Source of the DNA: Nitrospirota bacterium
GTDB lineage: Bacteria; Nitrospirota; Nitrospiria; JACQBW01
DNA length: 51,419 bases
NCBI GenBank assembly: GCA_016194305.1
Contig: JACQBW010000003.1
Span: forward strand, 103,224 to 154,642
Direction of reading: 5' to 3'
The position numbers and the translations under genes are program-made. The notes beneath the pieces were generated by a model that saw only the letters and a list, made by a program, of their open reading frames with translations, was not told the DNA's origin and did not search any database. Positions within the stretch are counted from its first letter, which is position 1, and each line of letters opens with the position of its first letter. Shown here piece by piece: positions 5,986-10,178 of the stretch.

Positions 5986-8409
5986 TTATAGCACACTCTT
6001 TCTGGAATCTAACAGGTTTTCCGCGACGGTAACCACCTCGCCGACGTCCTTACCATAGGCTTGAGCCCTGATCTCTTCCTGAAATTTCTTTGTCGTAACC
6101 GCTCCGCCAATCATAATTTGATAGGGTAACTGGCGGGTGTCCACTTCATCGACAACAACCTTCATCTGCATCATCGTCGTCGTCATGAGAGCGGAAAGAG
6201 CGATGATATCGGCCTTATTTTCCTCGGCGGCCTTTAAGATCGTTTCCATCGGAACATTTCTGCCCAGATCAATGACGTTGAATCCGAAATTTCTTAACAT
6301 AAGACAGCAGATATTCTTGCCAATATCGTGAATATCTCCTTTGACCGTGGCAAATACAATTGTTCCCTTTTTTTCCATATTTCCCGATTTTTCGAGATAA
6401 GGAAGAAGAAAATCGACGCCTCGCTTCATGGTATCTGCCGAAGCGACCAAATGGGGAATGAATTTCTTCCGTTCGCCGAACAGATCTCCCAATTTTCGAA
6501 TGGCGGGAGTCATGACATTCAGGAACATGTCAAAGGCTTCCAGTTTTTCGTCTATACCCTGCTTGACCAGCTGGGTAATACTTTCCCGCTCTCCTTCCAG
6601 CACGGCCTTGTAAATCTTTTCCCGTGTTGTTTGGGGAGGTGCCTCTTTGGGCGCATCTTTATTCCCCTCCAGGTCAGCCTGGACCTGAATAAAGGCTCTG
6701 CACTCAGGATCTCTTCTGGCAAAAAGAGAGGCTGCAGAGACGATTTGGTGCATTTCCAAATCGTAGGGATCCAGAATGGCGGCATCTAAACCCGCCGCGA
6801 TACATTGTGCCAGGAAAGTATTGTGAACCATATGGCGATTGGGAAGGCCGAACGAAACATTGCTTAAGCCCAGCGAGGTGGGAGATCCCAATTCAGTGGT
6901 GATCAACCGGATGGTTTCAAGCGTCTGCGTGGCTGATTCCTGAACAGCGGAAACTGTCAGCGCAAGGCAATCGAAGATAATATCTTCCTTGCGAATGCCA
7001 TAATCCGCGGCCCGCCTCAAAATAGTTTCTGCGTTTTTTACCCGCTGTGAAGCTTTTTCAGGGATCTCATCCCCCGCAACCAGGGCGATGACAGAAGAGC
7101 CATACTTTTTGACCAGGGGAAAAATCTCCTGAATCCGCTCTTCTTCGGCATTGACACTGTTGACCAGAACTTTGCCCGGGTAATAGATCATGCCATATTC
7201 CAGTGCATTGACGAATGAACTGTCAATGACCAGTGGAACGTTGACCACATTCTGGATTGCCGTGACTGCTTTTCCCATCATTTCTGCTTCATTAATCATC
7301 GGAACACCGACATTCACGTCAAGGGCCGTCGCGCCTGCCTCAAACTGTTTTCTCGCCGCCGCCACGATCAGATCGGTTCTCCCCTCTTTAATCGCCTGGC
7401 TGAAAAGTTTTTTCCCTGTCGGATTGATTTTTTCACCGATTTTGAGAAAGGGATGTCCAGGTCCGACATAGACTGTTTTCATTCGGCTTGAAATTTTCAT
7501 TCCCTTTCTGACATTTCTCGGCGCAGGCCGTCGGCCGGAAAGAATTCCCTTAATCTTTCGGATATAGTCAGGCGTTGTCCCGCAGCATCCTCCCAATATA
7601 TTTACGCCCGATTCGATAAAACGATCGGCGTAGGAAGCCATTTCATCGGAAGTGGCCGGAAAAACAGTGGTCCCCTTGATTTGAATAGGCAATCCCGCAT
7701 TTGGTTCCGCCGAAATAAAGACATGGGTTGTTTCTGACATCTTTTTGATGACCGGAAGCATATGTTCCGGTCCGGTAGAACAATTTACGCCTAAAATTTC
7801 AACGCCCAGCCCCTCCAGCACTGTTGCCGCCGTTTCAGCATCAGACCCTGTGTCGGTAATCCCATCCTGGGTAAAGGTCATATGGGCCATGATAGGAATA
7901 TTCTTCCCCTGAACCGCTTCTTTTGCCGCAATAATGGCCGCTTTCATTTCCTGCAGGTCAAACATCGTTTCAATGGCAATCAGGTCGCAGCCGGCCCGAA
8001 CCAGTTCAAAGGCCTGTTCATAAAAAAGGTGAACGGCCTTGTCAAAAGCAAGTTCTCCAAACGGTGCGATGGTTGTTCCCGACGGACCGATATCACCCGC
8101 CACATAGACTTTTTTTCCGCCGGCCGCCTTTCTGGCAATTTTGACAGCCGATTCGTTAATCTCCCTTATTTTGTCCTGTGCGTTATATTCCCCTAATCGA
8201 ATGCGGCTTGCACCAAAGGTATTGGTCAGGACGATATCGCTTCCAGCCAAAATATACTCCCGATGAACATCCACAATGGCTTCGGGATTCTCCAGATTCC
8301 AGAGATCGGGAGCGTACCCGTTTGGCAGACCCCGCCCCTGCAGAAGGGCACCCATCGACCCATCCAAAATCAAAATTTCAGTTTTTAGACGATCGAGTAT
8401 TTCAGACAT
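5986..8409 (-). CDS. metH: B12-dependent methionine synthase, without reactivation domain
   Basis: Transfers a methyl group from methyltetrahydrofolate via cobalamin to homocysteine. The 807 residues form three modules: homocysteine methyltransferase (about 1-290, zinc cysteines C210, C275, C276), pterin-binding domain (about 320-580, starting with IGEKINPTG at 324-332), and the cobalamin cap plus Rossmann domain (about 595-800), with DIHDIG at 692-697 providing the axial histidine H694. The classic enzyme is about 1,200 aa; this one stops after the B12 domain. The missing AdoMet-binding reactivation domain is encoded by the overlapping upstream gene, whose end overlaps this start by 8 bp, so the two are likely translated together. 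Confidence 0.93.
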   Translation of the reverse strand: MSEILDRLKTEILILDGSMGALLQGRGLPNGYAPDLWNLENPEAIVDVHREYILAGSDIVLTNTFGASRIRLGEYNAQDKIREINESAVKIARKAAGGKKVYVAGDIGPSGTTIAPFGELAFDKAVHLFYEQAFELVRAGCDLIAIETMFDLQEMKAAIIAAKEAVQGKNIPIMAHMTFTQDGITDTGSDAETAATVLEGLGVEILGVNCSTGPEHMLPVIKKMSETTHVFISAEPNAGLPIQIKGTTVFPATSDEMASYADRFIESGVNILGGCCGTTPDYIRKIKGILSGRRPAPRNVRKGMKISSRMKTVYVGPGHPFLKIGEKINPTGKKLFSQAIKEGRTDLIVAAARKQFEAGATALDVNVGVPMINEAEMMGKAVTAIQNVVNVPLVIDSSFVNALEYGMIYYPGKVLVNSVNAEEERIQEIFPLVKKYGSSVIALVAGDEIPEKASQRVKNAETILRRAADYGIRKEDIIFDCLALTVSAVQESATQTLETIRLITTELGSPTSLGLSNVSFGLPNRHMVHNTFLAQCIAAGLDAAILDPYDLEMHQIVSAASLFARRDPECRAFIQVQADLEGNKDAPKEAPPQTTREKIYKAVLEGERESITQLVKQGIDEKLEAFDMFLNVMTPAIRKLGDLFGERKKFIPHLVASADTMKRGVDFLLPYLEKSGNMEKKGTIVFATVKGDIHDIGKNICCLMLRNFGFNVIDLGRNVPMETILKAAEENKADIIALSALMTTTMMQMKVVVDEVDTRQLPYQIMIGGAVTTKKFQEEIRAQAYGKDVGEVVTVAENLLDSRKSVL

Positions 8410-9073
8410 TTGTCCCCGGAACTGATTTCTTTTCCGCTTTTCTTTCCCAGCCGATCAAGGCCGAAACCGAAAAACGGGGATCCATGATAAATGCTTCATT
8501 GTGCGTCACGCCGATCTTATGGGCTTCGGTAACTTTCAAGACCTCGGCCTGTACAGGCAGTTTCCAGTCTCCATACCCCACGCCAAATCGAAATGTTTTT
8601 TGATAACCATTTTTGTTGATTTCCGTTTCAATCAGCTTCTCTACTGGATCTGCAAAATAATCGGCCATCCAGGCGCCTATTCGATCGAGATAAAAGGCTT
8701 CGGCAGGTTCGTCTTCCTTGATTTCATCGATTTTCTTTTCAAATTCCGGACCCATCGTGCAGACCAAAAGCGTTGCATAATCGCATTTCTTCAGGAGCTT
8801 GACCATATTGCTTCCCTGAAAAAGCGTCGTACTGAGATCGCAGGTCACGTGGTCTTTAAAGACCTTTTCAATTTTAACTGTGCGGTAGACCCCTTTTCCG
8901 CTGATGAGGGTATACCCGATATCGATGGCCTTTTTAATATATTTGGCAATATTTTCTTCGGGAATTTCCTTTAAAGACTTATATTTGGGAAGCCGCAATT
9001 CCCTGATTATTTCAGCTTCATCAATCGTAAAAGGAATATTAAGTAAGGTAATCGGTTTTAAGCTCTTGATCAT
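8402..9073 (-). CDS. stand-alone methionine synthase reactivation-domain protein
   Basis: Resembles the C-terminal AdoMet-binding activation domain of MetH, which reduces and remethylates oxidised cob(II)alamin. The key segment RFGVGYGDW (about 162-170) matches the RxxxGY AdoMet motif of that domain and is followed by KIGVTHNEAFIMDP, typical of stand-alone versions in anaerobes and thermophiles. The frame is open to a TTG at 9100; the ATG at 9071-9073 is preferred because homologues begin close to this point and both ribosome sites are weak. It precedes metH with an 8-bp overlap and supplies exactly the domain metH lacks. A possible promoter (TATTAT on the minus strand near 9111-9116) lies just upstream. 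Confidence 0.88.
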   Translation of the reverse strand: MIKSLKPITLLNIPFTIDEAEIIRELRLPKYKSLKEIPEENIAKYIKKAIDIGYTLISGKGVYRTVKIEKVFKDHVTCDLSTTLFQGSNMVKLLKKCDYATLLVCTMGPEFEKKIDEIKEDEPAEAFYLDRIGAWMADYFADPVEKLIETEINKNGYQKTFRFGVGYGDWKLPVQAEVLKVTEAHKIGVTHNEAFIMDPRFSVSALIGWERKAEKKSVPGTNV

Positions 9074-9179
9074 GATCTCATTTAAAGAGAGGATATCCAA
9101 AAATCGGCCTATAATAGCATATCTACCTCAAAAAATAATGATTTATTTTAGTGATGCGCGGCGTCATAGGGGCATGGAA

Positions 9180-10178
9180 TTAAAGCCCGCGGATATCTGT
9201 GTAAGACCTGGCACAACGGAATCCGATACTGACCGATACCGTATTGGGCGAGAGGGCAATCCGGTTAAATGCCTGGAAACTGGGACCACACTTGTAGTAA
9301 CTGCAGTCATAGAACGACCCTCCCCTGAGCACTTTGTGTGATTCCCCATAGTTCGGGTTATCGGTATGGGGGTTATTGGGGTAAGGCTTAAACCAGTCAG
9401 AGGTCCATTGAAAGACATTTCCCGCCATGTCATAAACGCCGTAGGGGCTCTTTCCCGCCTCAAAATTCCCCACAGGAGTGGTATCACCGATTCCCAACAT
9501 ATACACATTGGCGTTTTCCTTGACAAACTCATTGCCCCAGGGGAAGATTCTTCCGTCACTTCCCCGGGCGGCTTTTTCCCATTCCTTTTCTGTCGGAAGC
9601 CTCTTCCCTTTCCAGTGGCAGTAATCTTCCGCGTCAAACCAGCTCACAAAAGTAACAGGGTGATCTTTTTTTACAAGGAGCACCCTTTTGTCAATCCAAT
9701 GTTTCGGAGGTTTTCGCGCGGTCTGTTTCACAAAGAGGTTATACTCTCCGTTGGTGACGTCATTTCGGTCTATCCAATATTCTTCAAGATAATCTTTATG
9801 TTTTGGACCGACCGCTTTTTTGACATAATTCTCTCCCATAATAAATTCCCCTGCCGGAATCAAAACCATTGCCGACTGAGAAGCATCCTTTCGATGATGT
9901 CCTGACAATGAACGGGAAATTTTTATCGCTTTGAGGACAATTTCTTCGGGAATCTCCCCTTCATTGTGGCAGAGCAGGCACTCTCCGGATTGTTTGTGTA
10001 TATTGCCAAGCGTTGCGGGATGGGCGTTTTCGTGACACCCATAGCATTCTGCCTTCGTGTCCTTCGCGTAATAGGTATTCCTGTCCGCGGAATTGACCTG
10101 ATATGCGAATCCAAATAGGAGACTTGTAAGGATCAAAATCTGAATGATAACACCCGTCCTGGTCAATGGCTGAAACAT
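9180..10178 (-). CDS. diheme c-type cytochrome fused to an FGE/SUMF1-type domain
   Basis: The protein (332 aa) begins with a signal peptide or anchor (about 8-31, ending FAYQVNSA), so it should act outside the cytoplasmic membrane. Two heme-c motifs follow, CYGCH (45-49) and CLLCH (67-71). Residues about 103-328 form a formylglycine-generating-enzyme (SUMF1/PvdO/EgtB-like) fold, with MVLIPAGEF, RLPTEKEWEKAARG, GNVFQWTSDW and LRGGSF. Near the end, C292 and C297 have the C-x4-C spacing of the copper-binding cysteine pair of true FGE, though most bacterial relatives lack it. The gene stands alone with gaps on both sides. It could install or use an oxidative modification on an exported protein, but the substrate is unknown. 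Confidence 0.85.
   Translation of the reverse strand: MFQPLTRTGVIIQILILTSLLFGFAYQVNSADRNTYYAKDTKAECYGCHENAHPATLGNIHKQSGECLLCHNEGEIPEEIVLKAIKISRSLSGHHRKDASQSAMVLIPAGEFIMGENYVKKAVGPKHKDYLEEYWIDRNDVTNGEYNLFVKQTARKPPKHWIDKRVLLVKKDHPVTFVSWFDAEDYCHWKGKRLPTEKEWEKAARGSDGRIFPWGNEFVKENANVYMLGIGDTTPVGNFEAGKSPYGVYDMAGNVFQWTSDWFKPYPNNPHTDNPNYGESHKVLRGGSFYDCSYYKCGPSFQAFNRIALSPNTVSVSIGFRCARSYTDIRGL

Follow-up and report, generated by a model that had tools for sequence, protein, structure and literature searches.

Formylglycine-generating enzyme (FGE, or SUMF1; PDB entries 1y1e, 5ssz, and 6s07) is built on the SUMF1 fold and has a GGS strand followed by a loop with two cysteines in C-x4-C spacing. In human FGE, the copper cysteines of this loop are C336 and C341 (PMC4505483). 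Other proteins with this fold, including PvdO, EgtB, and CalU17/ToxD, take their names from small-molecule pathways. A second point of reference is the methyl-plastoquinone (Mpq) pathway of Nitrospirota. In two Nitrospira species, no quinones other than methyl-plastoquinones are reported (PMC12324825), and a 2026 study, which names MpqA to MpqE, terms the pathway elusive (PMC13386864). As far as the accessible text of these two papers goes, neither names a SUMF1-type protein in the pathway. Among titles in the open literature, none was found that joins SUMF1 or FGE with quinone synthesis or with the c-type hemes of Nitrospirota, and by term counts of the accessible main texts, the word "formylglycine" is absent from PMC9040806 and PMC12342949.

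The window analyzed here is a stretch of 51,419 nucleotides from a Nitrospirota genome, and the gene of interest (positions 9180 to 10178; this gene and all of its parts are on the minus strand) encodes P0001, a protein of 332 residues with a hydrophobic N terminus, two CxxCH motifs, and a SUMF1/FGE domain. The N-terminal segment (residues 1 to 31; 10086 to 10178) is, by its hydropathy, a predicted signal peptide or membrane anchor, with a best 19-residue Kyte-Doolittle mean of 2.04 at residue 10 compared with 0.68 elsewhere. Attachment of c-type heme takes place outside the cytoplasm and hence requires export, which fits the position of the most hydrophobic stretch at the N terminus. The heme motifs are CYGCH (residues 45 to 49; 10032 to 10046) and CLLCH (residues 67 to 71; 9966 to 9980); two or more CxxCH motifs occurred in 0 of 20,000 shuffles of P0001, and two of them behind a predicted export signal mark the protein as a putative diheme c-type cytochrome. 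Cytochrome-type Pfam models matched P0001 with at best 13.7 to 17.1 bits, all below the cutoff, and no conserved distal heme ligand outside the CxxCH motifs was seen by eye in the family alignment. The genome encodes cytochrome c assembly proteins (three PF01578 matches). The heme motifs are followed by a SUMF1/FGE domain (PF03781; residues 102 to 324; 9207 to 9875), assigned from the predicted fold and a Pfam match with an E value of 2.4e-54 and 185 bits against a cutoff of 23.3. The initial annotation's description of an exported diheme-type protein joined to a SUMF1 fold therefore agrees with the two CxxCH motifs, the hydrophobic N terminus, and the PF03781 match, with export being a prediction. 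P0001 stays below the NCBIfam equivalog cutoffs for EgtB (115.8 of 360 bits), PvdO (57.9 of 500 bits), and GldK (89.1 of 350 bits).

An AlphaFold model built from 47 sequences, which replaced an earlier and useless model from 7 close sequences (pLDDT 34.8), had a mean pLDDT of 80.3 and a pTM of 0.74, with low confidence both in the heme module (pLDDT near 50) and in the ten-residue block containing the cysteines (64). In line with the FGE-type domain first proposed, the predicted fold matches that of human FGE with a VIA-align Z score of 28.3 at 2.4 to 2.5 Å over 221 residues, a score tied with those of CalU17 (28.5) and EgtB (28.0). PvdO, EgtB, CalU17, ToxD, and PorK/GldK share the predicted fold of P0001 and stand at the top of the list of matches within a few Z units. 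Apart from one phage tropism protein, the entries listed are SUMF1 relatives, and the list does not in itself exclude other families.

P0001 shares with FGE the GGS strand followed by the C-x4-C loop and adds the two CxxCH motifs. The GGS of P0001 (residues 286 to 288) lies directly before the C292/C297 loop, and alignment and conservation delimit the segment GGSFYDCSYYKCGPS (residues 286 to 300; 9279 to 9323), which holds both cysteines. The spacing is that of true FGE, as initially noted, but the register differs: true FGEs read GGSYMC-x4-C or GGSYLC-x4-C, whereas the P0001 family reads GGSFYDC-x4-C, with both cysteines one residue later and a loop two residues longer, as judged from the sequence alignment rather than from coordinates. 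The stretch N[IT]WQG[ED]FP is present in all four reference FGEs (human FGE and three plasmid FGEs, two of which adjoin sulfatase genes) and absent from the 10 P0001-family rows in the alignment. A search for PF00884 sulfatases returned 0 matches in the P0001 genome, which is 95% complete; the control matched in 10 of 14 named genomes. Given the absence of a PF00884 match, the shifted register, the longer loop, and the missing N[IT]WQG[ED]FP stretch, P0001 is very unlikely, as far as its sequence indicates, to be a sulfatase activator. Sulfatase maturation, suggested at first as a possible role, was rejected on these grounds, and the equation of C292 and C297 with the copper-site cysteines of FGE did not hold up. 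The protein oxidation suggested as a further role likewise gained no support from the analysis, and neither did copper binding.

Because 3,182 of 20,000 shuffles of P0001 contained a C-x4-C pair somewhere, such a pair is no rarity, and conservation is the criterion that counts. Among the SUMF1 ORFs of the P0001 genome and its relatives, a set that was not picked by the motif and is thus non-circular, the GGS-C-x4-C motif was present in 42/42 complete diheme SUMF1 ORFs but in 5/60 complete heme-free ones; the comparison left out L042, a diheme ORF that the end of its contig truncates ahead of the motif, and ORFs without a recognizable GFR end. Relatives that keep both hemes and both cysteines were accordingly found, and the diheme-SUMF1 architecture is genuine and conserved as a family within the Nitrospirota. 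In an alignment of 47 members, chosen by the motif, C292 and C297 are invariant, as are S288, Y295, G298, S300, N305, and R306, and D291 is present in 45; five of the 47 are heme free. The P0001 genome has nine SUMF1-domain matches, among which P0001 is the sole SUMF1 ORF with hemes or with a C-x4-C pair in its last 110 residues.

A scan of genome contigs with exact short patterns, which finds close relatives only, returned six relatives, all Nitrospirota by their titles; the best was a Candidatus Manganitrophaceae MAG. Across the phylum, P0001 matches at E values below 1e-69 occur in 26 of 395 genomes, a count made by eye that includes genomes with heme-free motif proteins, and 23 of these 26 genomes have UbiA (absent in G015, G022, and G113). 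UbiA itself (E up to 1e-50) is found in 178/395 genomes. Because most genomes with UbiA have no strong P0001 match, the diheme SUMF1 protein is not needed for the UbiA pathway in general. In family f2, which has UbiA, none among the matches listed reaches the heme module, and the three sequences that were read (L055 to L057) have neither CxxCH nor the motif. Viral contigs scanned with P0001 as the single query gave nothing. Plasmid records gave 478 matches, all below 60% identity, and the best 15 of the 478 are ordinary SUMF1-type proteins by label, where labeled.

For phylogenetic analysis, removing ORFs with identical last 200 residues reduced 69 C-x4-C ORFs to 57. Clades were assigned by hand: clade A (14 rows) comprises family f1, which holds P0001, and the non-operon copies of f8 and f9; the remaining rows fall into clade B (26), clade C (13, of which 5 are heme free), and a group of four f23 rows. 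Each of these four groups has a bootstrap value of 100 and an SH-aLRT value of 97 to 99, and a second, smaller tree agrees with the clades; midpoint rooting places the three outgroup rows next to clade B, so that the tree supports no ranking of the clades by age. L066, L090, L227, L228, and L229 are clade C members that keep the C-x4-C loop without CxxCH.

Clade B genes are found with genes of quinone synthesis. UbiA, UbiC, or UbiD is encoded on the fetched stretch in 25/26 clade B rows (one row per genome), within about 1.2 kb in 23 and at 2.1 kb (G012) and 6.2 kb (G007) in the others, G004 being the exception. The gene order in f9 is UbiC, SUMF1, UbiA, UbiD, diheme SUMF1, and SUMF1. The f5 and f7 clusters contain UbiC-UbiA with the diheme protein and no UbiD on the stretch. 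The TIGR01474 cutoff (4-hydroxybenzoate octaprenyltransferase) was passed by all three UbiA proteins tested, including that of the P0001 genome. PF02621, searched as a sign of the futalosine route to menaquinone, was absent from 17/17 genomes searched; the control matched in 4/14. Many stretches with the diheme protein also carry a SUMF1 paralogue that is heme free and whose loop is of the GHY/GHF type instead of bearing the cysteine pair; it was observed on 22/26 clade B stretches, 12/13 of clade C, 3/4 of f23, and 0/14 of clade A (such paralogues include L068:8936-9796, L079:6018-6914, and, from the P0001 genome, L002:1423-2223).

In G019, one of five f5 genomes with clade B, UbiA is continued in frame by the diheme SUMF1 protein within a single 597-residue ORF (L210:4314-6107, minus strand). 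Compared with the relative G025, the alignment of UbiA falls no more than two residues short of its end and the stop is gone, about 20 residues separate UbiA from the first CxxCH, and the last UbiA helix replaces the signal segment of the partner. Together, these features favor a genuine fusion over the loss of a stop as the probable origin of the ORF, although it occurs in a single genome.

The clade A loci differ in this respect, with Ubi genes on 0/14 stretches, four of which (L058, L059, L060, and L014) have a flank of 385 to 496 bases on one side; the flanks of L015 are about 3.2 to 3.5 kb, and those of L051 and L052 in clade C are about 1.5 kb. For the P0001 gene, the stretch used in the count spans 3.7 kb, and the only UbiA match of its genome lies outside the window, in a UbiC-UbiA pair some 56 kb away on the same contig. 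UbiD was absent from this genome at an E value of 1e-40. The clade A loci in f1, f8, and f9 showed no common partner. Thus, clade B relatives lie together with UbiC/UbiA/UbiD homologues in the phylum of the methyl-plastoquinone pathway, whereas clade A does not, and the tie to respiration suggested in the initial annotation is supported for the sister clade B rather than for the P0001 gene itself.

On this basis, we propose, as a reading with about an even chance of being correct, that P0001, as a clade A member, is one of a family of Nitrospirota redox proteins that are exported to the periplasm and probably anchored in the membrane, in which a short two-heme c-type module would precede a SUMF1-type domain whose conserved [DN]-C-x4-C-G-x-S loop sits, by prediction, where true FGE holds its copper cysteines. 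The groove of the SUMF1 domain would bind a phenol or quinol that is small and probably soluble in lipid, the cysteine pair would be a redox or metal site that takes part in the oxidation or binds the metal, and the two hemes would carry electrons between this site and the periplasmic pool of soluble cytochromes. For clade B, the operon and the UbiA fusion point to an intermediate or a product of quinone synthesis from 4-hydroxybenzoate as the most likely substrate, methyl-plastoquinone being the quinone reported for this phylum; by homology, clade A, including P0001, may perform the same kind of chemistry. The absence of Ubi genes from the clade A stretches, the many UbiA genomes with no strong P0001 match, the heme-free motif members, the lack, by eye, of a conserved distal heme ligand, the subthreshold cytochrome Pfam matches, and the low model confidence in the heme module and the cysteine loop count against the proposal.

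A noncatalytic role is the alternative that survives best, although we consider it doubtful. The SUMF1 part would then serve for binding or as a scaffold, like that of PorK/GldK, with C292 and C297 joined in a structural disulfide. The hemes, placed beside membrane enzymes, would do no more than pass on electrons or sense the redox state. The presence of PorK/GldK among both the sequence and the fold matches, the position of the cysteines out of the FGE register, and the retention of the pair in heme-free members are all consistent with such a role, but the conserved set of S288, D291 (45/47), C292, Y295, C297, G298, S300, N305, and R306, in members picked by the motif, exceeds what a disulfide needs.

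A stronger form of the redox proposal, which we regard as unlikely, is that the family represents a new enzyme class, a heme-wired periplasmic SUMF1 oxidase in which the cysteine pair, possibly with copper, oxidizes the prenylated phenol or quinol made by UbiA. It would form part of the quinone pathway in those Nitrospirota lineages that lie outside Nitrospira. Clade A would be a duplicate that has come to act on a related substrate in the membrane, and in f1, where UbiC-UbiA is present and no clade B copy occurs among the SUMF1 genes, the protein would act in trans.

It is quite unlikely that the diheme family is instead a ring hydroxylase or oxidative decarboxylase of the quinone pathway. 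The clade B linkage, the UbiA fusion, and the f5 and f7 clusters that have no UbiD on the stretch fit such an enzyme, and the missing ring hydroxylase was at first the favored identity, on the strength of the operon and the fusion; it was marked down after flavoproteins were found both with and without the family. TIGR01988-like flavoproteins at E values below 1e-20 occur in 22/25 genomes with the family and 18/21 without it, none of these matches exceeding the cutoff of a model that is unspecific here (the control matched in 14/14 genomes, over the cutoff in 3). In three f16 genomes, a UbiH-like flavoprotein of this kind lies 47 to 60 bp beyond the cluster. U32 proteins, the family of UbiU/UbiV, were found in 3/46 genomes (two of f23 and G064), and the two f23 genomes, which have the family, carry them instead of the flavoprotein. 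Given these flavoproteins and U32 proteins, and UbiA families such as f2 in which no listed match reaches the heme module, ring hydroxylation is unlikely to depend on the diheme protein alone. Two further observations concern hydroxylation. The P0001 genome encodes the best TIGR01988-like flavoprotein of the 46 genomes (G000:C29:7186-8331, L235; 137 bits, cutoff 224.65), a candidate quinone hydroxylase. In f23 (G081; L215 and L241), UbiA and a U32-family gene are about 5 kb apart on contig C80, perhaps indicating an oxygen-independent hydroxylation route.

The neighborhood of the P0001 gene raises another, highly improbable reading, in which clade A in f1 serves methionine synthase as the first gene of a run. 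The next gene, 79 bp downstream of the P0001 ORF, encodes a MetH-activation-like protein (8402 to 9100, minus strand; a weak PF02965 match below the cutoff) and overlaps by 8 bp the methionine synthase gene metH (5986 to 8409, minus strand; S-methyl_trans, Pterin_bind, and B12 domains). This order and strand are the same in 3/3 f1 genomes. However, c-type hemes are attached outside the cytoplasm and MetH is cytoplasmic, the clade A loci of f8 and f9 have other neighbors, and gene clusters 16 and 17 are restricted to f1 among the loci clustered. The metH neighborhood in f1 is therefore weak evidence of P0001 function. Within the metH pair (window positions 5986 to 9100, minus strand), MetH has no Pfam activation-domain match of its own, and the separate activation-like protein is encoded just upstream. 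Finally, a true FGE wired to a cytochrome and activating sulfatases is barely conceivable, since the SUMF1 fold, the PF03781 match, and the C-x4-C pair near the position of the FGE cysteines are countered by the lack of a PF00884 match in a search whose control was positive in 10/14 named genomes and by the differences in register, loop length, and the N[IT]WQG[ED]FP stretch.

These comparisons indicate that having a C-x4-C pair is not enough to mark a SUMF1-domain protein as a sulfatase activator. Gene order across several families and one fusion tie the SUMF1 domain and its two-heme module to quinone biosynthesis, and the clade B clusters give a short list of testable genes for the methyl-plastoquinone pathway.
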